Origin: Candidatus Bathyarchaeota archaeon
GTDB taxonomy: Archaea > Thermoproteota > Bathyarchaeia > Bathyarchaeales > Bathyarchaeaceae
Reading direction: 5' to 3'
DNA length: 64,000 bases
Assembly (NCBI GenBank): GCA_004376295.1
Contig: SOJZ01000041.1
Span: 1-64,000, forward strand
Shown here: one piece after another, positions 8,619 through 30,457 of the stretch
Position numbering within the stretch: position 1 is the first letter of the stretch
Layout: every line of letters begins with the position of its first letter
The notes under the pieces: generated by a model
The model's input: only the letters and a program-made list of their open reading frames with translations
The model's database searches: none
Told to the model about the DNA's origin: nothing
Position numbers and translations under genes: made by a program

Positions 8619-10103
8619 TTATCCCTTGACAACCCCTAGTGGAACCAAGCGGACCACACGTGTTGCGATTCCAACCTTGTCGCTCACTTTCGCCACTCTG
8701 TCCACATCTTTATATGCTAGGTCAGCTTCCTCAGCTAAAACAATAGAACTGGCAGCCCTAACCACGATTCCACGTTGTCCCAAAGCCTTTTTCACGTCTC
8801 CACCCCAGAACCTTCTTTTCGCAGCGGTTCGACTCATCATACGGCCTGCTCCATGAGCTGTGGATCCAAATGAAACATCCATGGCTTTAGATGTGCCAAC
8901 CATCAGCCATGAGCTGGTTCCCATGCTTCCGGGGATGAGTACAGGTTGTCCAACGTCTCGATAGTCTGCGGGAACTTCTACACGTCCGGGTCCAAACGAC
9001 CTTGTTGCTCCTTTCCTGTGAATCCAAACCTTTCTTCGTTGTCCATCTACCTTGTGTTCTTCAACCTTTGCGATGTTGTGAGCTACGTCATAGAGTAGAT
9101 GTAAGCCAAATTCGTCTGCTGGTCTTTTGAACACCTGTTCGAAGCTCTGGCGTACCCAGTGCGTAATTGCCTGTCGATTGCTGAATGCGTAGTTGACGGC
9201 GCAAGCCATGGCTTGATGGTAGTCTTCAGCCTCATTACTGGTGCCAGGTGCACAGGCGAGTTCTCGATCTGGCAAAACGATGTTATATTTATGAACTGCA
9301 CGTTCCATGACACGCAGATAGTCGGAGCATACTTGATGTCCGAATCCACGTGAACCACAGTGAATCATAACGGTCACCTGCCCCACATGAGTGACACCAA
9401 AAGTTTTGGCAACGCGAGGATCGTAAATTTTGTCGACTTTTTGAACTTCGAGGAAGTGGTTTCCTGATCCTAGAGTGCCAACTTGAGTCAGCCCTCTTCT
9501 TTTGGCGGTGGTTGAAACCTTGTCGGGGTTAGCGATTTCCATGCAGCCGTTTTCCTCGCAATGTTTAGCATCTTCAGACCAGCCTAGCCCTTGATCCACA
9601 ACCCATGGCACACCCTCAGCCATCAGCCGATCAAGCTCATGCGGGGTCAAGCGAAAGTCTTTTCGGCGACTGCCAAGTCCGCATGGAACATTAGTGAACA
9701 TAGCATCCGTAATTTCAGCGAGTTTGGGGCGAATGTCTTCTTCAGAGAGGTTTGAGATTAGCATACGAACTCCGCAGTTGATGTCGTATCCAACGCCGCC
9801 GGGACTGATCACACCTTCTTCGTAGTCGGTGGCTGCAACGCCGCCGATGGGAAAGCCATATCCCTCATGGCCGTCGGGTAAAGTGATGGCGTGTTTGTAG
9901 ATGCCGGGTAGGTGGGCGACATTGGAGCACTGTTCAAGGGTTCGGTCCGTTTTTATCTTTTGAAGTAGGTCTTCGTCGGCGAAGACTATGCCGGGAACTC
10001 GCATGCCGGGTTTGTATTTTTGAGGTATCCGCCAGCTGTATTCGTCGATTCTTTCAAGCGGGACTTTTGAAGGAGGTCTGCGGAATCTTTTTCCCCTACT
10101 CAT
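8619..10103 (-). CDS. rtcB: RNA-splicing ligase RtcB
   Basis: This protein of 494 residues, the usual RtcB length, has no intein. It shows the metal-binding PGGVGYDINCGVRM (Asp107, Cys110), the GSGNHFLEVQ loop and IHCGSRGFGHQ. It also has the nucleotidyl-acceptor His in HRKGATRSFGPG. RtcB joins 2',3'-cyclic-phosphate and 5'-OH RNA ends using GTP and completes tRNA splicing. ATG 10103 is preceded by AAAGGTGATTCA; an open frame extends upstream to 10181 but lacks conserved sequence. An intron-bearing tRNA-Ser at 18339-18456 and archease at 12165 fit its role. Confidence 0.96.
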   Translation of the reverse strand: MSRGKRFRRPPSKVPLERIDEYSWRIPQKYKPGMRVPGIVFADEDLLQKIKTDRTLEQCSNVAHLPGIYKHAITLPDGHEGYGFPIGGVAATDYEEGVISPGGVGYDINCGVRMLISNLSEEDIRPKLAEITDAMFTNVPCGLGSRRKDFRLTPHELDRLMAEGVPWVVDQGLGWSEDAKHCEENGCMEIANPDKVSTTAKRRGLTQVGTLGSGNHFLEVQKVDKIYDPRVAKTFGVTHVGQVTVMIHCGSRGFGHQVCSDYLRVMERAVHKYNIVLPDRELACAPGTSNEAEDYHQAMACAVNYAFSNRQAITHWVRQSFEQVFKRPADEFGLHLLYDVAHNIAKVEEHKVDGQRRKVWIHRKGATRSFGPGRVEVPADYRDVGQPVLIPGSMGTSSWLMVGTSKAMDVSFGSTAHGAGRMMSRTAAKRRFWGGDVKKALGQRGIVVRAASSIVLAEEADLAYKDVDRVAKVSDKVGIATRVVRLVPLGVVKG

Positions 10104-23970: not shown

Positions 23971-23978
23971 GATATTAA
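23971..23978 (-). promoter_or_regulatory. TATA box of YbjQ-family gene
   Basis: On the minus strand TTTAATATC is located about 35-40 bases before the TTG start. The sequence upstream of it is now the left end of the inserted element, so the upstream promoter context has changed. Confidence 0.5.
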
Positions 23979-23986
23979 ACTTTGGT
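23973..23986 (+). repeat. Target-site duplication, left copy
   Basis: TATTAAACTTTGGT is repeated exactly at 30188-30201, outside the opposite inverted repeat. One base is shared with the right inverted repeat, so the duplication is 13 or 14 bp, within or just under the 14-15 bp usual for casposons. Confidence 0.9.
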
Positions 23987-23987
23987 A

Positions 23988-24008
23988 AAACCCAAACCCA
24001 AACCCAAA
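23988..24008 (+). repeat. Terminal inverted repeat, left
   Basis: Three AAACCC units followed by AAA match the right terminus (30168-30188) perfectly in inverted orientation. One additional A lies outside it, next to the target duplication. Confidence 0.92.
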
Positions 24009-24053
24009 AAAAAGGGAGTATCGTAAGAAATCATATTAGGGTTGTCTAACAAA

Positions 24054-24072
24054 CTATAACTATAAGTTATAG
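24054..24072. repeat. Hairpin near left terminus
   Basis: CTATAACT and AGTTATAG form a perfect 8-bp inverted repeat around ATA. It is in the 150-base non-coding stretch between the left terminal repeat and the 3' end of cas1, so it may be a protein-binding site of the element. Confidence 0.5.
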
Positions 24073-24096
24073 AAATGTCTGGGAACGGATCATTGT

Positions 24097-24111
24097 GCTC
24101 TCGGCGAGAGC
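24097..24111. terminator. GC-rich hairpin after cas1 operon
   Basis: GCTCTC-GGC-GAGAGC is a perfect 6-bp stem about 50 bases past the cas1 stop codon. No T-tract follows on the minus strand, so a role in termination or end recognition remains open. Confidence 0.35.
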
Positions 24112-24158
24112 AAGGTTTTGTCATTTTGTTTTCCTCATTTTATAAAAAGGGAGAATGT

Positions 24159-25214
24159 TTATGCAGGAAGAGAGGCCGTTCGAGGCTGCCATGTTTTTCT
24201 TTCACCTCTTAGAAAACGTGCAAGTAACATGGCCTCTTCATTAACCAGGGTTTCAATAGTTTGACTTTTACTATGGCCTCTACCTCTCACACGTGGAATC
24301 ATGGTTTTAAACTCGAAACAGTCATGCAAACACCTTTCAAATTCCCTATGTTTCTCCTTCTTCAAGAACAGTCTGGGATACTTGTTCCGCTTGTTTGGAT
24401 AGCCGAAATAAACCCTTCTGAAATCACCTTTCCTCAAAGTTTCACCAAACCGGATCAAACAATCATCAATGAAGTAACGATACAACTCCATCAGATCACA
24501 CACCAAACTACTCTTACCAAACTGCATGGAATGTAGAAAGCCTAAGTACGGCTCTAATCTTGCCCTCAAAACAGCATGATAACATTTCCAATACAGTATT
24601 GAATAGCCAAAATTGAAAAGGTTGTTCAAGCCATCATATGCCCCTTTTGTCCTCCGATAGTTACATCTAAGCCACAACGGAAACAACAGAAACACCTCTT
24701 TAAAATAATTCTTAGACGTTGCACCTTCAATACCTAACAAACGCTTTCTCACAGCCACCAAGTTTGATTCCTCAACATTGTTAATCCTGTTTTTTATCCC
24801 AAACAAATCATACTGCCTGAATCCATGTTTCCGTAAGACCTTGTTCTGGCCTTCAAGTTTAGCATACACAATTTTTTTAGCTATGTCCATGCCTAATCCG
24901 TTGCTGACGCTTTCATACTGACCGATCCTAGTTTTAACGTGGCTGTCATCATCTAAGGCTTTTAAAATGCCTACGGGTTCACCGTTCCAACGTGTAACAA
25001 CCATTGAAATTTTCCATTCTAAAGCTGTTACTAAAGCGTTTGTAGAAACCAAGTTTCCACCTTTCAACACTATCTCGCTGATCTCTTTATGCTCAATATC
25101 CCATGAGCCTTTCTCTTCTCTGTTTTTATCGTTAAGGAAAAACTCGTTGGCCCGAAAGCCCAAGTATTCTCCTTTGTCGGTTACAAAGATTTTTTTGGTC
25201 CGCTGCCTAACCAT
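24159..25214 (-). CDS. cas1: Cas1 integrase (casposase-like), solo
   Basis: This 351-residue Cas1 has the N-terminal beta domain (FVTDKGEYLGFRANEFFL) and the helical catalytic domain. The conserved metal-binding residues are present: Glu163 in LLGIEGATSKNYF, His228 in GFLHSMQFGKSSL and Asp240 in VCDLMELYRYF. Cas1 cuts and joins DNA ends; in casposons it integrates the whole element. The gene sits next to the left inverted repeat, five bases after a winged-helix gene in the same operon. No other cas gene or CRISPR array lies in the window. The C-terminal 60 residues are basic and may hold an extra DNA-binding unit. Confidence 0.93.
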   Translation of the reverse strand: MVRQRTKKIFVTDKGEYLGFRANEFFLNDKNREEKGSWDIEHKEISEIVLKGGNLVSTNALVTALEWKISMVVTRWNGEPVGILKALDDDSHVKTRIGQYESVSNGLGMDIAKKIVYAKLEGQNKVLRKHGFRQYDLFGIKNRINNVEESNLVAVRKRLLGIEGATSKNYFKEVFLLFPLWLRCNYRRTKGAYDGLNNLFNFGYSILYWKCYHAVLRARLEPYLGFLHSMQFGKSSLVCDLMELYRYFIDDCLIRFGETLRKGDFRRVYFGYPNKRNKYPRLFLKKEKHREFERCLHDCFEFKTMIPRVRGRGHSKSQTIETLVNEEAMLLARFLRGERKTWQPRTASLPA

Positions 25215-25219
25215 TCATT

Positions 25220-25615
25220 TCACATCTCCAGTAACTTTATTGTTGTTTCCACTAGGGATTTGTTGACTTGTTTTTTAAGGTCGGGAAACGTCAGCAGCAG
25301 CATAACAGCATGGCTAAAGTCTTGTTCAATTTCTTTTATTATCTCTTGCTCCGGCACATGTGGAACTGTATAGATGATCCTATTTTTGTCATGCACGTTT
25401 GGATCAAGCACCTTCTTAATCCAACCGTTCTCACACATGTAAACCAGGTGATGCCACAACGTTGCCTTAGATACAGAAACCATGTCAAGCAGTTCTCGGA
25501 ATGTTAAAGCCTTCTTATCCTGCCACGCTTTAAAGACTATCATAAAGATTTTCATTCTGTTTTGTTTGGCTATTAGCGTTGATTTTGATCCTAACCGTTT
25601 TTTTGTTGTTGTCAT
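25220..25615 (-). CDS. Winged-helix regulator in operon with cas1
   Basis: This 131-residue protein has a winged helix at residues 18-75 (MKIFMIVFKAWQDKKALTFRELLDMVSVSKATLWHHLVYMCENGWIKKV), similar to ArsR/MarR-like archaeal regulators. It has an amphipathic C-terminal helix. GAGGT precedes ATG 25615. It is five bases upstream of cas1 and probably controls the divergent promoters between itself and the ribbon-helix-helix gene, setting transposition against cargo expression. Confidence 0.75.
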   Translation of the reverse strand: MTTTKKRLGSKSTLIAKQNRMKIFMIVFKAWQDKKALTFRELLDMVSVSKATLWHHLVYMCENGWIKKVLDPNVHDKNRIIYTVPHVPEQEIIKEIEQDFSHAVMLLLTFPDLKKQVNKSLVETTIKLLEM

Positions 25616-25651
25616 TTCGTTTACCTCTAAACATAGTTTAGGTTAAAGAGG

Positions 25652-25659
25652 TATATAAA
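25652..25659 (-). promoter_or_regulatory. TATA box for the winged-helix/cas1 operon
   Basis: TTTATATA on the minus strand is about 37 bases before ATG 25615, giving a short leader that contains GAGGT. Confidence 0.6.
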
Positions 25660-25707
25660 CGTTATCCCACAAGCATACACAAACTAAAACAGTTTAGGGA
25701 AACAAAC

Positions 25708-25717
25708 CTTTAAATAG
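25708..25717 (+). promoter_or_regulatory. TATA box for the rightward cargo operon
   Basis: CTTTAAATAG is about 40 bases before ATG 25757 and about 28 before the alternative TTG at 25745. The divergent promoters are 50 bases apart. Confidence 0.55.
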
Positions 25718-25756
25718 GGGAAGCAAACATACCTATATTTAGAGTTGGTTAAAACC

Positions 25757-26428
25757 ATGTCTGAAAAAACATTAAGGAAACTTCCTCCAAAAGAGGAAGA
25801 GATAGAAGATTTGGAAACCGGAGAAACACCAGAAACCAAAAAGGAAGCCATAAAGCCGACACCACAAAAAAAGCTACCATTACCAAAAATAACAGTTGAG
25901 GACCTAGACACGCCAGAAGCCAAAACCAAAAAAGTTCTAGTGTTCTTAACAACCGATCAACACAAAAAGCTGAAGGCCGAAGCATACGAAAAAACCGTTA
26001 CGATGGGAACAATAGTTAGAGAAAGCATAGACACGCACTTCGGAGACATCAAAACAGTAAAAGCTAATCCTGATAACGATCCGGAGACTATCGCAAAAAT
26101 CGAAGCTTGTATGAAAGAGGCAACTGGCTTTTTTGGATCGGTTGATCTTGAAGCCTTCTTAATTTGTTGTCAAGAGAATGAACTTGTTGCTGACGTTTGG
26201 AATAAAGAGCTAATTGAAGTCTATCTGAAACCTAAGATAATCGAAGCTTCAAAGGGAATGTTCAGCGAGAGCCTAAAGGATAATACAACCGGTGTTGTAA
26301 CGCTACTGCAACTCAACGAAGAGAACGCAACTTTTCTCTGTAAACAACTAGGCTTAACCTATGACGTGACAGAAGCAGAAGCGGAAACAGAAGAAGAGAA
26401 AAAAGGCTTGTTTGAAGAGCTGATTTAA
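25757..26428 (+). CDS. Ribbon-helix-helix protein with long helical C-terminus
   Basis: This protein of 223 residues starts with an acidic, Pro/Lys-rich disordered region (residues 1-50). A ribbon-helix-helix unit follows (KKVLVFLTTDQHKKLKAEAYEKTVTMGTIVRESIDTHF), then a helical domain of about 130 residues and an acidic tail. Such proteins bind palindromic DNA as dimers and often control plasmid or virus operons. ATG 25757 was taken; TTG 25745 is in frame. It is the first gene of the rightward operon in the casposon-like element. Confidence 0.65.
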   Translation: MSEKTLRKLPPKEEEIEDLETGETPETKKEAIKPTPQKKLPLPKITVEDLDTPEAKTKKVLVFLTTDQHKKLKAEAYEKTVTMGTIVRESIDTHFGDIKTVKANPDNDPETIAKIEACMKEATGFFGSVDLEAFLICCQENELVADVWNKELIEVYLKPKIIEASKGMFSESLKDNTTGVVTLLQLNEENATFLCKQLGLTYDVTEAEAETEEEKKGLFEELI

Positions 26429-26430
26429 AC

Positions 26431-26544
26431 ATGCTCGGCAACATCTGGAATCGACAATTCAGCTTAACAGTTCTACTGCTCGTTGCTATAATCTGTTTCA
26501 TCGCAGGTTGCTACTTAGACACTTACGTAAAAGAGGCTATGTAA
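26431..26544 (+). CDS. Small single-pass membrane protein
   Basis: A 37-residue ORF starts two bases after the preceding stop. It reads MLGNIWNRQF, then one membrane helix (SLTVLLLVAIICFIAGCYL), then DTYVKEAM. Operon position and clear hydrophobic helix support it; no homologue is recognised. Confidence 0.5.
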   Translation: MLGNIWNRQFSLTVLLLVAIICFIAGCYLDTYVKEAM

Positions 26545-26648
26545 CATGCTTGAGCATACGGTTTCCTATTCCCCACTTTTTTCAAATTCCATTTACTCTT
26601 ACAGAGTCCAGATGGACACGTTAATCCACATGGAGAGTTGATTAAAAA

Positions 26649-27002
26649 ATGAGTTTTCATCAAGCCTCTGGAGAGGCCCTCAAACGAACAACCACTATTA
26701 AAGACTTGTTAGTGGCTGCTTATAAAAGTTCCGACCATTATAAAAAGTTTATTAATGGTTTTGTGCCACAAGTTAAAGAGTGGATGTTGGCTAATGACGT
26801 TCAAAAAGTGGAGATAGATAAAAAGGGAAAAACGGTATCAACTGTTGAGCATAGAGGCAACGATGATGAAACAGCTTTTTTGAATATGTGGTTTGAAGGC
26901 GACATAACAACTAAACGGTTTACTGAACTTCTGGGCCTAGAGTTTTGCAACGTTGAGTACGACCTAAAAAGTTTCGTTGAGATGATAAGTGATGAAGGCT
27001 AA
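26649..27002 (+). CDS. Element-encoded protein of unknown function
   Basis: This 117-residue ORF is mainly helical: KRTTTIKDLLVAAYKSSDHYKKFINGFVPQVKEWML, followed by a short beta hairpin (VQKVEIDKKGKTVSTVEHRG) and more helix ending FVEMISDEG. I do not recognise the family. GGAGAG lies before ATG 26649. It is a cargo gene of the casposon-like element. Confidence 0.6.
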   Translation: MSFHQASGEALKRTTTIKDLLVAAYKSSDHYKKFINGFVPQVKEWMLANDVQKVEIDKKGKTVSTVEHRGNDDETAFLNMWFEGDITTKRFTELLGLEFCNVEYDLKSFVEMISDEG

Positions 27003-27045
27003 TTTAGTTTTATTGTCTAAACTGTTTTTGGCAACAAAACATTTA

Positions 27046-27114
27046 TTAGTAACCATACCACCTACCCTATGGATACATGTAGGAAACCAAAGGTAGCGAA
27101 CATGTGGTTACTAA
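27046..27114. repeat. Long imperfect stem-loop upstream of the ATPase gene
   Basis: TTAGTAACCA (27046-27055) and TGGTTACTAA (27105-27114) are a perfect 10-bp inverted repeat. An inner pair CTACC (27062-27066) / GGTAG (27092-27096) extends the fold. It occupies the gap before the ATPase start and could be an operator, a structured leader or an origin. Confidence 0.55.
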
Positions 27115-27139
27115 CATATCATAAAGAAAGGTGTCAAAA

Positions 27140-27949
27140 ATGAAGGCAAAAACGAACTCGATGATAAAAATTGAACCGTTAAAGAAGGCGATAGAATGTG
27201 CCTTAATCAGCCCTTACATAAAAAATGAAAAACCTATTTCTCTACTGATTGTTGCGAAAGCTGAAAGCGGAAAATCCTCTGTTATGAAATTGTATCGAGA
27301 AAATAAGGGAATAGTGTACATGACCGACTGCACGGCCTACGGAATAACAAGAGACGTACTGCCAAAAATGGTTTCTGGGGAAATTAAAACGTTGATGATA
27401 CCAGACTTGTTGACACCTTTATCGAAAGCAACGAAAACAAGGCTTAGTTTTGTTGCTTTTCTTAATAATCTGATTGAGGAAGGCGTTGCTAAAATAAAGA
27501 CGTATGCTATGATCTGGGATAAAGACGTTAAAGGTAACATTATAACGGCTGTTACTGATGAAGCGTTAGAGGATAGCCGTCATGGTTGGGGAAAAATAGG
27601 GTTTTTAAGTCGGTTTGTCATGTTCAGTTATTCTTATAACATGTCAACTATTTCAAAAATCTTAAATTATTACAGCGAATTTGGTTGTGTTGATACACCG
27701 ATTAAGGTTGATTTGCCGAAAAAACAACGGAATATTGAGTTACCTGTTGAGTTAGCTAACAGACTTGATCCTATTGCGATGAAGATTGGGGAACAGTTTG
27801 GGATTTATGGGATTAGGGCTAAAATTAATTTTCGCAGTTTGGTTAAGGCCCTTGCTTTTAGAAATGGGTGTAAGTGTGTGAGGGAGAAAGAGTTTGCCGA
27901 GTTTTTGGAGTTGGCTGATTTTATGAATTTTAAGTTTAATCCGTTGTGA
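27140..27949 (+). CDS. P-loop ATPase of the casposon-like element
   Basis: This protein of 269 residues has a Walker A region LLIVAKAESGKSSVMKLY (about residues 36-53) and a Walker B-like IKTLMIPDLLTPLSK. A later DSRHGWGKIGFLSRFVMFSYSYN could supply sensor or arginine-finger residues. The fold looks AAA+/DnaB-neighbourhood, of the kind carried by plasmids and viruses. It is the only recognisable enzyme besides Cas1 and might support replication, DNA loading or packaging. ATG 27140 follows AAAGGTG; GTG 27131 is in frame. Confidence 0.7.
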   Translation: MKAKTNSMIKIEPLKKAIECALISPYIKNEKPISLLIVAKAESGKSSVMKLYRENKGIVYMTDCTAYGITRDVLPKMVSGEIKTLMIPDLLTPLSKATKTRLSFVAFLNNLIEEGVAKIKTYAMIWDKDVKGNIITAVTDEALEDSRHGWGKIGFLSRFVMFSYSYNMSTISKILNYYSEFGCVDTPIKVDLPKKQRNIELPVELANRLDPIAMKIGEQFGIYGIRAKINFRSLVKALAFRNGCKCVREKEFAEFLELADFMNFKFNPL

Positions 27950-27963
27950 ATGGTGTTTGAAAA

Positions 27964-28083
27964 ATGAGTAAGCAGAAAGCAACGCCGGAACTGATAGAGA
28001 AATATCATAAATGGTTGATAGAAATTGCAGAAGAAAGAAGAAAGAGGCCTCTACCTCAAAAATGTGAAAGGTGTCTTGAATGA
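27964..28083 (+). CDS. 39-residue protein with CxxC
   Basis: The ORF reads MSKQKATPELIEKYHKW and ends RPLPQKCERCLE. It is charged and helical with a terminal CxxC. Its TGA overlaps the ATG of the next gene (ATGA), indicating translational coupling. Family unknown. Confidence 0.5.
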   Translation: MSKQKATPELIEKYHKWLIEIAEERRKRPLPQKCERCLE

Positions 28084-28574
28084 CTTGGATTAGGCCGGAA
28101 GGCCATAATGACGTTGACAGCGTTTGGAACGAAGAGGCTAAAGCCTATGATGGAGACTTAGAGACTTATTCGTCAACCTCTATCAATATTTTGCAGTGGA
28201 GTAGTTTTCTATATTTCTATTTGCCTCCGACAAAAGCGGATAAGGTCCGGTTCTATGTGAACTACTCTCACGTTTTGAGTTTGGTTGACGTTGACGTTAA
28301 GATTGGAGGCACATGGGTTGACGTTTATGAAGGCACTTTCACACGAAAGACATGGATCGAAAAACTGTTTGGTTCTGGTGTTGTGAATCATGTTAGAATT
28401 AGGTTTTACAGATCGGGTAGTGTGCCGATCAGCCTTATTCAACTTAGCGAAGTTATGCTTCATGCAGTAGATGATAAAGTCAACGGAAAGCCTCCAGACT
28501 ATGCTGTTTCGATACCATTAATTCTTTTTGTCGGGTTAGTGTTGCTATTCTTATTTTTGGGAGGGCTACCATAA
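28080..28574 (+). CDS. Beta-rich (discoidin-like) protein with C-terminal membrane anchor
   Basis: This 164-residue protein begins MTWIRPEGHNDVDSVW and has a beta-sandwich-like pattern reminiscent of galactose-binding/discoidin folds (AKAYDGDLETYSS, VRFYVNYSH, VNHVRIRFYRSG). It ends in a single membrane helix (VSIPLILFVGLVLLFLFLGG). No N-terminal signal is evident, so it may be tail-anchored. Archaeal viruses often carry such anchored beta proteins in the virion; that role is only suggested. It overlaps both neighbouring genes by a few bases. Confidence 0.6.
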   Translation: MTWIRPEGHNDVDSVWNEEAKAYDGDLETYSSTSINILQWSSFLYFYLPPTKADKVRFYVNYSHVLSLVDVDVKIGGTWVDVYEGTFTRKTWIEKLFGSGVVNHVRIRFYRSGSVPISLIQLSEVMLHAVDDKVNGKPPDYAVSIPLILFVGLVLLFLFLGGLP

Positions 28575-28930
28575 TGTCAGCGACTAGCCTTTATGGAACT
28601 GCAAAACGTAAAATCACTTACAAAAAAAGAGTCAAACACAAAATAGAACCATACACTAGAAAAGGCAAACTAGTAAAAGGCTACACCGCAAGGCGATGGC
28701 ATAAAATAACACGCATCACCAAAAAACCATTGACTAAGAGGTTTACGTTCTATGGAACGGCTAAAGACATAGAGAAAGCCAAACGCATAATGGAGAAAGA
28801 AGGGTTAATTCCTAGACAGAAATATGAAGATCAAATAAATGCTTACAAGTTTTGGAAGGATAGACAGTACCGAAAAAGACACAGTGTAGAAGGGGATTGG
28901 ACAGATTTTGAAGAAACAGAAAGCCCCTAA
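28574..28930 (+). CDS. Highly basic small protein
   Basis: This 118-residue protein is very rich in Lys, Arg and Tyr (KRKITYKKRVKHKIEPYTRKGKLVKGYTARRWHKITRITKKPLTKRF). Its C-terminal half is acidic and helical. The N-terminal half could bind DNA or RNA. Its start overlaps the preceding stop (TAATG) and its end overlaps the next gene by 23 bases, so it is an operon member. Function unknown. Confidence 0.6.
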   Translation: MSATSLYGTAKRKITYKKRVKHKIEPYTRKGKLVKGYTARRWHKITRITKKPLTKRFTFYGTAKDIEKAKRIMEKEGLIPRQKYEDQINAYKFWKDRQYRKRHSVEGDWTDFEETESP

Positions 28931-29354
28931 GTACATAGCAGGATACACCACATCTCAAGGTGTACTCTTGGATTTAGATAGAACAACCTTACAAGAAACT
29001 CTAGATATAGCTAAAAGGCTAATGAAGAAACATGGTCTAGAGGGATACCTCATAATAGAGTCAAGTGATCTGAACCATCAAATTGTGTTCAACAAAAAAA
29101 CTACGTGGAAAAAAGTTTTGGAGATTATTTTTAAACTTGTTTGGAGTCATCATTACTATCAACATCAAGATATGTCATCGTTAACGAATTGGGCTGTGCT
29201 GCAAGTTTGTAAGGGTTCATGTACTCTCAGGGTAAATGGTAAATATTTGAAGGGTTCTCCGAAAATTTTGATGCGATTTGGGAGACAGGATAAGATCATT
29301 AAGGAATATTTGGAGATATACGGTTTGTTCAATAAGTGTTGTAAGGGTGTTTGA
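28908..29354 (+). CDS. Element-encoded alpha/beta protein, unknown function
   Basis: This 148-residue protein, with a TTG start inside the previous gene, reads GYTTSQGVLLDLDRTTLQETLDIAKRLMKKHGLEGYLIIESSDLNHQIVFNKK and later ALRQVCKGSC-like sequence (AVLQVCKGSCTLRVNGKYL). The strand pattern with ESSDLNHQIVF hints at an RRM-like or primase/Rep-like core, but no catalytic motif can be assigned. It ends in YGLFNKCCKGV. It overlaps the next gene by one base. Confidence 0.55.
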   Translation: MKKQKAPKYIAGYTTSQGVLLDLDRTTLQETLDIAKRLMKKHGLEGYLIIESSDLNHQIVFNKKTTWKKVLEIIFKLVWSHHYYQHQDMSSLTNWAVLQVCKGSCTLRVNGKYLKGSPKILMRFGRQDKIIKEYLEIYGLFNKCCKGV

Positions 29355-29938
29355 TGTTGGGGAAGGTCGAGGAAAAGATTGTCGTTGACGACACACATGT
29401 CGTCATTGATGACACTTATCCATGTTGGGTACAACCTGAGTTGAACAGGAAATATTTTCCGTCTATTCAACTTTTTGACGTTTCAGACCATCCGTACTTT
29501 ATATCGGAAGATGAAAGTTTTCCTAATTTGGTGTTTGACGGTTTCTTTTTGTATTTAGTAAGCATGAAAAAGCCTGAACGTGAAAGTAATGGAAAATATC
29601 TTTTCTTTAGTGGAGATAACCGTAGATTATTTGATGTTGCTGTTAACGAGATACAGAATCATGGGTTCTGTAAGGCTCAGTTGGTTATGTGTCTTATGAA
29701 AGGGTTTAGTGAGTATGTCTTGTTTATTCATTGGTGCGATGGCTCTCGGTGTCATGAGTTGTTTGAAAGAAATAGGCTGGAGTATCATGTGAAGTTTAGA
29801 GGTTGGAAAAGCTATGCTAAAACGAAAGTGTGGCATAGTGAAGGCTACTTGAAGAAACTTGAGGGGTTGTATGGTGTTGGTTACAAAAAGAAAATTGAAG
29901 TTGAAAGGGAGAAAAGAATACGTGAACGAACAATTTAA
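29354..29938 (+). CDS. Last cargo gene of the element, unknown function
   Basis: This 194-residue protein begins MLGKVEEKIVVDDTHVVIDDTYPCWVQPELNRKYFP. It has a beta-rich middle (FDGFFLYLVSMKKP, KYLFFSGDNRRLFDVAV) and a basic helical tail. Its first codons contain an inverted-repeat site that recurs after its stop. No family is recognised. It may form a pair with the preceding gene, which it overlaps. Confidence 0.55.
   Translation: MLGKVEEKIVVDDTHVVIDDTYPCWVQPELNRKYFPSIQLFDVSDHPYFISEDESFPNLVFDGFFLYLVSMKKPERESNGKYLFFSGDNRRLFDVAVNEIQNHGFCKAQLVMCLMKGFSEYVLFIHWCDGSRCHELFERNRLEYHVKFRGWKSYAKTKVWHSEGYLKKLEGLYGVGYKKKIEVEREKRIRERTI
29385..29404. repeat. GACGACA–TGTCGTC palindrome, copy 1
   Basis: GACGACA and TGTCGTC flank CACA. 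The 18-base core with two leading T residues recurs at 29994-30013 with three changes. This copy is inside the coding region of the last cargo gene. Confidence 0.55.
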
Positions 29939-30167
29939 AAGTTGGAGGAGGCCTAAAAAATATCAACGATGACACCATGTCTTTTGTTTGTCATTGACGA
30001 CACGTATGTCGTTTGTTGTTTTGTTGTTGGGTTGCTTGGGTTTTAATTTCTTGTCTTTTTGTCCTAAAACAATGGACTTTCTACACTTTTTGTTCCTCTT
30101 TTTTTCTTGGTATATATAGTTTACTACACAACATTGTAGTTTAGTACACAACATCGTAGTTTAGTAC
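29939..30167. other. Right-end non-coding region of the element
   Basis: This T-rich region between the last gene and the right inverted repeat has no ORF of note. It contains the second GACGACA palindrome, several T-tracts (from about 30042), and three 20-bp direct repeats adjoining the terminal repeat. It probably serves termination and end recognition. Confidence 0.5.
29994..30013. repeat. GACGACA–TGTCGTT palindrome, copy 2
   Basis: TTGACGACACGTATGTCGTT differs from copy 1 at three positions. It lies 55 bases after the stop of the last cargo gene. A weaker relative, GACACCATGTC, lies just upstream near 29970. Confidence 0.55.
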
Positions 30168-30176
30168 TTTGGGTTT
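30117..30176 (+). repeat. Three tandem 20-bp repeats at the right end
   Basis: Units at 30117, 30137 and 30157 share TAGTTTA(C/G)TAC; the first two continue ACAACAT(T/C)G. The third unit runs into the right terminal inverted repeat. Regular spacing of 20 bp places each copy on the same DNA face, as expected for protein-binding iterons. Confidence 0.7.
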
Positions 30177-30188
30177 GGGTTTGGGTTT
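30168..30188 (+). repeat. Terminal inverted repeat, right
   Basis: TTT followed by three GGGTTT units is the exact reverse complement of 23988-24008. Confidence 0.92.
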
Positions 30189-30201
30189 ATTAAACTTTGG
30201 T
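30188..30201 (+). repeat. Target-site duplication, right copy
   Basis: TATTAAACTTTGGT is identical to 23973-23986. Joining the flanks through one copy restores a continuous intergenic region between the YbjQ-family gene and a rightward small ORF. Confidence 0.9.
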
Positions 30202-30274
30202 GTCTATAGGTCTGGTTGAAGGAACAAAGAGAAAGGAGACTTGTTAGAAGATATGCTCGCTAATTACGAAAGCA

Positions 30275-30457
30275 GTGGATGAAATGCAAAATATGTCAGT
30301 CAAAAATCAGGTTGATAACTCAGATATAAAGGCCAAGGCAAAAGCTCTTAGATCAATCATTCAAGACATAGCTTCCAAATCTGGCATGCATGCAGATGGG
30401 GTGTGCACTCTTTTAACGAATACTGCGTTCCGCAGAGTAAAAGGAGATATTCTCTGA
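30275..30457 (+). CDS. Small hypothetical protein
   Basis: This 60-residue ORF has a GTG start (ATG 30284 in frame). It reads SDIKAKAKALRSIIQDIASKSGMHADGVCTLLTN and is helical and soluble. Its 3' end overlaps the convergent membrane-protein gene by 45 bases. It lies just outside the right target duplication. Family unknown. Confidence 0.4.
   Translation: MDEMQNMSVKNQVDNSDIKAKAKALRSIIQDIASKSGMHADGVCTLLTNTAFRRVKGDIL

Follow-up and report, generated by a model that had tools for sequence, protein, structure and literature searches.

A Cas1-encoding element lies at positions 23973-30201 of the window, the 64,000-nt stretch of a Candidatus Bathyarchaeota archaeon contig (SOJZ01000041.1) that was analysed here. 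The element is 6.2 kb long and is delimited by terminal inverted repeats (TIRs) and target site duplications (TSDs). An inverted-repeat search placed the TIRs at 23988..24008 (left, + strand) and 30168..30188 (right, − strand); their sequence, AAACCCAAACCCAAACCCAAA or (AAACCC)3AAA, is perfectly repeated over 21/21 bp. A repeat search showed that TATTAAACTTTGGT flanks both ends of the element as a 14-bp direct repeat (23973..23986 and 30188..30201). The first T of the right copy doubles as the final T of the right TIR, and the TSD is therefore 13-14 bp long. TSD and TIR scored 14 + 21, compared with 13 + 7 for the best pair of direct and inverted repeats in 100 first-order Markov shuffles of 16 kb. 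No further copy of the 21-bp end sequence was found in the host genome with ≤1 mismatch allowed.

The gene at 24159..25214 (− strand) encodes a Cas1 transposase/integrase of 351 aa, as assigned by profile matches (Pfam Cas_Cas1, 1.9e-47; TIGR00287, 3.9e-49). Its residues E163, H228, D240 and E243 are invariant in an alignment of eight family members, and it is the sole Cas1 in the host genome (1.89 Mb, 99.8% complete). Directly upstream of cas1, a winged-helix regulator was assigned by profile matches (25220..25615, − strand); helix-turn-helix (HTH) genes hold the same position in several relatives, and the winged-helix gene recurs there. Profile scans of the element's own open reading frames (ORFs) gave no match to family B DNA polymerase (PolB), HNH, Cas2 or Cas4, and no CRISPR array was found within the window. 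A first-pass annotation of this DNA had listed the same absences, along with the TIRs, the target duplication and a Cas1 with E163, H228 and D240; all were confirmed on the window sequence.

That annotation had also proposed a search for the empty site, and joined flanks were accordingly sought in related genomes. Contig 6 of the congeneric sister genome G026 reads GATATTAAACTTTGGTGTCTATAG, where a single copy of TATTAAACTTTGGT joins both flanks, which are ~95% identical to those in the window. The locus is thus polymorphic in length, and the element is a discrete insertion with a target duplication. Other clean empty sites were found for two elements of genome G119 (L219 and L225) in G120, and for one element of G120 (L220) in G119. 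Comparison of window positions 30202-30457 with G026 contig 6 also showed that 372 bp to the right of the insertion are missing in the window genome. In G026 this segment holds the first half of a 225-aa gene, which is truncated in the window genome, where its tail remains as ORF 30275-30457.

Relatives of the element were detected by searching genome contigs with a four-row Cas1 alignment, whereas a single-protein scan found none. In a survey of 257 genomes of the class with a profile of eight Cas1s, family members scored >400 bits and CRISPR-type Cas1s ~75-150 bits, with partial copies in between. A sample of 398 genomes of the phylum yielded no family member outside Bathyarchaeia. Within Bathyarchaeia, TIRs and TSDs delimited 13 further elements of this architecture (14 in total), measuring 3.3-12.6 kb, with a TSD core of 13-15 bp in all 14. 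Loci cut by a contig end or frameshifted (L138, L217 and L224) were left out of this set. In one of the 14 elements (L132) cas1 is decayed, hence 13 elements carry cas1. The closest relative, L133, encodes a Cas1 that is 75% identical and is inserted at TATTAAACTTTCTT. Cas1 C-terminal remnants are present in many genomes, and for many of these no clean TIR or TSD was found. Short alternating purine-pyrimidine tracts (ATGCATGC, GCGCGC) follow the Cas1 C-terminal ends or remnants at L113, L114, L118, L125, L127, L128 and L129.

The largest ORF is ≤362 aa in the 13 elements with cas1, and therefore none of them carries PolB. As a control, Nitrososphaeria casposase loci were treated with a similar script; these contained ORFs of 850-940 aa, and 3/8 of the large ORFs scanned matched PF00136. 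A CRISPR array (≥4 repeats) was found beside 0/14 element loci, as opposed to 13/20 CRISPR-type cas1 loci of the same class. It is thus exceedingly improbable that the gene is a relic of CRISPR adaptation lying by chance between repeats: the protein does resemble archaeal CRISPR Cas1s, but no array, Cas2 or Cas4 accompanies it, the TIR/TSD structure is repeated in 14 elements, and the four empty sites refute this explanation.

Cas1, with an intact active site, is the one gene that all elements share. The cargo otherwise changes between elements and includes DNA methylases, ThaI and Mrr restriction enzymes, ParB-like proteins and a lipocalin. At L115, a cas1 element lies in tandem with a 673-bp unit (8660-9332) that has (CA)n ends and a membrane/zinc-ribbon ORF but no cas1; both are inserted at the same target sequence, which is present in three copies. 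This cas1-less unit indicates that mobilisation in trans occurs within the family. It could also suggest that the elements in general are passengers whose movement in trans depends on another transposase or on homologous recombination, but we consider this very unlikely, given that Cas1 is the sole shared gene, that no other transposase or recombinase was found in the ORFs scanned, and that the TSD length fits a casposase-type Cas1. The anatomy of the element strongly supports integration driven by Cas1, and the window element is, with high probability, a member of a bathyarchaeal family of DNA transposons that are mobilised by Cas1.

The TIRs of all elements are simple-sequence tracts, with a unit that varies by element (AAACCC, CCAA, CCCAA, CA, CCT, TC or TTCC). 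The expectation that the termini would be kept in relatives was therefore borne out in kind. Their exact length, 21 bp in the window element, ranges from 5 to 72 bp among relatives, and one element may have unequal unit counts at its two ends, as in L220 and L115. The AT-rich motif ATnAAARTTTAAT is common to the 13-bp target cores. This motif scored 8.76 bits, versus means of 4.90 for shuffled TSDs and 3.23 for 13-mers from the flanks (0/300 in each control), although in a few elements the cores were picked by eye from repeats of 14-18 bp, a choice that the controls lacked and that tells against the comparison. By ORF calls, 14/14 insertion sites are intergenic, between divergent, co-directional or convergent genes. 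The target resembled an archaeal promoter (B recognition element/TATA), but this reading does not hold in general, since no fewer than 4/14 sites lie between convergent genes; the motif is still TATA-like. Two insertions fall within a dispersed intergenic motif close to AGTTATAGCCCCCCTTATAWATAGGTTGAAT: L219 in one of its copies and L225 in a diverged copy. This motif occurs in some 20 or more copies per genome in G119 and G120 (L337-L356), often just 3' of genes.

The ancestry of Cas1 was examined in a maximum-likelihood (ML) tree of 65 proteins, in which casposases were represented by that of A. boonei (6OPM), ten from Nitrososphaeria and one from Bathyarchaeia (G026). The family Cas1s formed one clade (support 100/100) and the sampled casposases a separate one (100/99). 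The new clade grouped with archaeal CRISPR Cas1s (90/93, and 92 in another ML tree), and its stem is long (1.4). Forcing the new clade and the casposases together cost 5.6 log units, and the approximately unbiased (AU) test did not reject the union (p = 0.058). In a PDB profile search, Cas1 matched the A. fulgidus CRISPR Cas1 (125 bits) better than the A. boonei casposase (90 bits). The first-pass annotation had suggested both this tree and a new casposon class. Of the latter, a Cas1-borne transposon with TIRs and TSD and no polymerase, in a TACK archaeon (Bathyarchaeia), stands; assignment to the casposons is put in doubt by the position of Cas1 outside the casposase clade and by the absence of PolB.

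Two origins come into question here. One possibility, which we put forward tentatively, is that a CRISPR-branch Cas1, and not a casposase, became a transposase in Bathyarchaeia and was joined to a primase/MCM replication module and to telomere-like simple-repeat ends. If so, Cas1 was recruited as an enzyme of mobile elements on two occasions or more, or went back from immunity to transposition. Just as plausible, and likewise short of an even chance, is that the elements are a fifth family of true casposons, in which Cas1 descends from casposases, PolB was replaced by a primase (with or without the MCM ATPase), and the separation in the tree is a long-branch effect. The AU result leaves room for this origin, TSD length and tandem insertion are as in casposons, and two bathyarchaeal loci would be natural intermediates. 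At G026:C27 (L120 6636-10923) and G152:C23 (L323 7016-11112), a longer, casposase-like Cas1 of the canonical type (404 and 408 aa) lies near the same MCM-like ATPase; G026:C27 also has an ORF like archaeo-eukaryotic primases (AEPs), and no PolB was recognised there. These loci are possibly PolB-less casposons of the classical Cas1 branch, and element boundaries were not found for G026:C27. Set against a casposase origin are the placement of the clade in both ML trees, the PDB profile scores and the TIRs, which differ from the GGGGTATAGA...-type ends of thaumarchaeal casposons (similar script). The presence of a canonical-type casposase with the same ATPase at two bathyarchaeal loci suggests that replication modules and Cas1 integrases appear to have been exchanged.

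The putative replication module of the window element comprises two genes on the + strand. At 28908..29354 lies a small AEP-like protein with DxD, S..H and LR motifs. A primase-like gene is present in 11/13 elements (117-223 aa; motifs DxD, S..H and LR..K); D22 and D24 are invariant among the 11 members, S53 is nearly so, and the H is found in most relatives (SSDLNHQ in the window protein). The structure model of the window protein is alpha/beta with a predicted local distance difference test (pLDDT) score of 88, and its DxD and sxH motifs on a predicted fold like that of the RNA recognition motif (RRM) point to membership of the AEP superfamily. Its best fold matches were unnamed proteins of Pyrobaculum filamentous virus 1 and Beppu filamentous viruses (E 2e-4, TM-score 0.53-0.57), and a PDB fold search gave weak matches to LigD and PrimPol-type AEP polymerases. 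A small basic conserved ORF overlaps the primase-like ORF as its partner (28574..28930, + strand) and has homologues in other elements. The second gene, at 27140..27949, encodes an MCM-type AAA+ ATPase core of 269 aa with Walker A, Walker B and an Arg finger (LSRF). All 50 of the 50 PDB fold matches listed for its model were MCM proteins (best 6e-8); the protein is the core only, and the N-terminal DNA-binding domain of replicative MCM is not present. MCM-like ATPases occur in 5/13 elements, the window element and four other delimited ones. A P-loop ATPase had been surmised in the first-pass annotation, and the surmise is here sharpened to an MCM-type AAA+ core. The accompanying notion of a minimal element relying on host replication did not hold, as most relatives carry the primase-like gene and the window copy has the MCM-like ATPase as well. 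Six primase-only loci and some ATPase-only loci were also met in a profile check.

By analogy with casposases, in which Cas1 attacks target strands ~14 bp apart with the element 3' ends and excision can restore one clean target (PMC6977970, PMC10359463), we infer that the Cas1s of this family use similar chemistry. Cas1 would link the element's 3' ends to opposite target strands at points ~13 bp apart, as shown experimentally for casposases, and gap filling by the host would then create the target duplication. The primase-like protein, together with the MCM-like ATPase in the window copy, probably replicates the element in an excised or copied form, in place of the PolB of casposons. In this scheme the AEP-like protein would prime synthesis and the MCM-like ATPase, where present, would act as helicase. 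The simple-repeat ends may be kept, or may arise, by slippage or end synthesis during replication.

Several points weigh against this account. Recognition of the ends by Cas1 alone is an assumption. Where the third catalytic acidic motif of the primase-like protein is expected, there is LR..K and no clear acidic residue. PF24387 ('AEP-like') was matched by 8/16 members, but below threshold (best 1.2e-4), and the model had no PDB match at E ≤ 0.001. The MCM-like gene is found in only 5/13 elements, and L133 and L220 carry neither gene. The two genes are thus not strictly required in cis, and L133 and L220 must make do with help given in trans or by the host. Both of these elements encode a shared protein of 181-208 aa (L133 12411-13034 and L220 12837-13379; 44% identical) that had no database match.

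An integrated virus or satellite, with Cas1 as its integrase and the unassigned ORFs as virion proteins, seems improbable to us, though less so than a passenger unit. It would fit the fold matches of the AEP-like protein to small proteins of filamentous archaeal viruses, the many unassigned ORFs, one of which has a C-terminal hydrophobic segment, and the unassigned protein shared by L133 and L220. However, no match to a capsid, terminase or other virion family was obtained, and the sizes of the elements and their wholesale change of cargo, restriction-modification genes included, tell against a virus. A search of IMG/VR with the 21-bp end returned 78 contigs, the end being of low complexity, and two Cas1 queries found no viral relative there at the sensitivity used.

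Casposons comprise families 1-4 (Krupovic et al. 2014, PMC4046053), with families 1 and 2 in Thaumarchaeota (PMC6563490; reviewed in PMC9939771). The Cas1-mobilised elements described here share with them a stand-alone Cas1 with intact catalytic residues, TIRs, ~14-bp TSDs (casposon median ~15 bp), tandem use of one target, HTH genes and restriction/methylation cargo. Unlike casposons, the new family lacks PolB, no HNH nuclease was found, the TIRs are simple repeats, and Cas1 lies outside the sampled casposase clade and has no C-terminal HTH extension of the kind seen in family 2. The targets are AT-rich and intergenic, whereas casposons insert at the 3' ends of tRNA or EF-2 genes, and the new family has an AEP-like protein and, in part, an MCM-like ATPase. 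The M. mazei casposon MetMaz-C1 also has a 14-bp TSD, and its excision can leave one clean target site, comparable to our empty sites; in contrast, its target lies at a tRNA-Leu gene and begins with CGCA, and it carries PolB and HNH (PMC10359463, PMC6977970). CRISPR-associated primase-polymerases (CAPPs, PMC8211822) similarly place an AEP-type protein beside Cas1, but they are large, multi-domain proteins of CRISPR adaptation operons with Cas2, whereas the AEP-like protein of the new family has 120-220 aa and lies in a transposon. Cas1-solo group 1 of Methanomicrobiales is likewise outside CRISPR loci, but lacks the full catalytic set and mobility (PMC4046053), while Cas1 of the new family is complete and mobile.

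No casposons in Bathyarchaeia are described in the literature searched, which left out preprints and most subscription papers. The family is previously undescribed; it is without the DNA polymerase carried by all known casposons and usually has a small primase-like protein instead. PolB was treated as defining by the original authors. Because PolB is absent, the element is by this definition not a casposon, and it is best seen as a casposon-like transposon that would work like one. CRISPR adaptation is held to stem from casposons, for which PolB is treated as a hallmark. A widespread PolB-less family of Cas1 transposons, with a putative replication module of another kind and a Cas1 nearer to CRISPR Cas1 than to the sampled casposases, thus bears directly on how often, and in which direction, Cas1 was recruited. 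For study, it also provides a compact predicted Cas1 integrase with a short AT-rich target.

The remaining ORFs of the window element are all on the + strand. Those at 25745..26428, with a weak match to phrog_35906 (2e-6), and at 26649..27002 had no homologue in other elements; the ORF with the C-terminal hydrophobic segment (28080..28574) and the last ORF (29351..29938) are element-specific. Beside the right end, two tandem 20-bp repeats that are 90% alike (30117..30156) are possibly binding or origin repeats. Palindromic 25-bp repeats around TTGACGACACACATGTCGT, 88% alike, flank the last ORF at 29379-29403 and 29988-30012.

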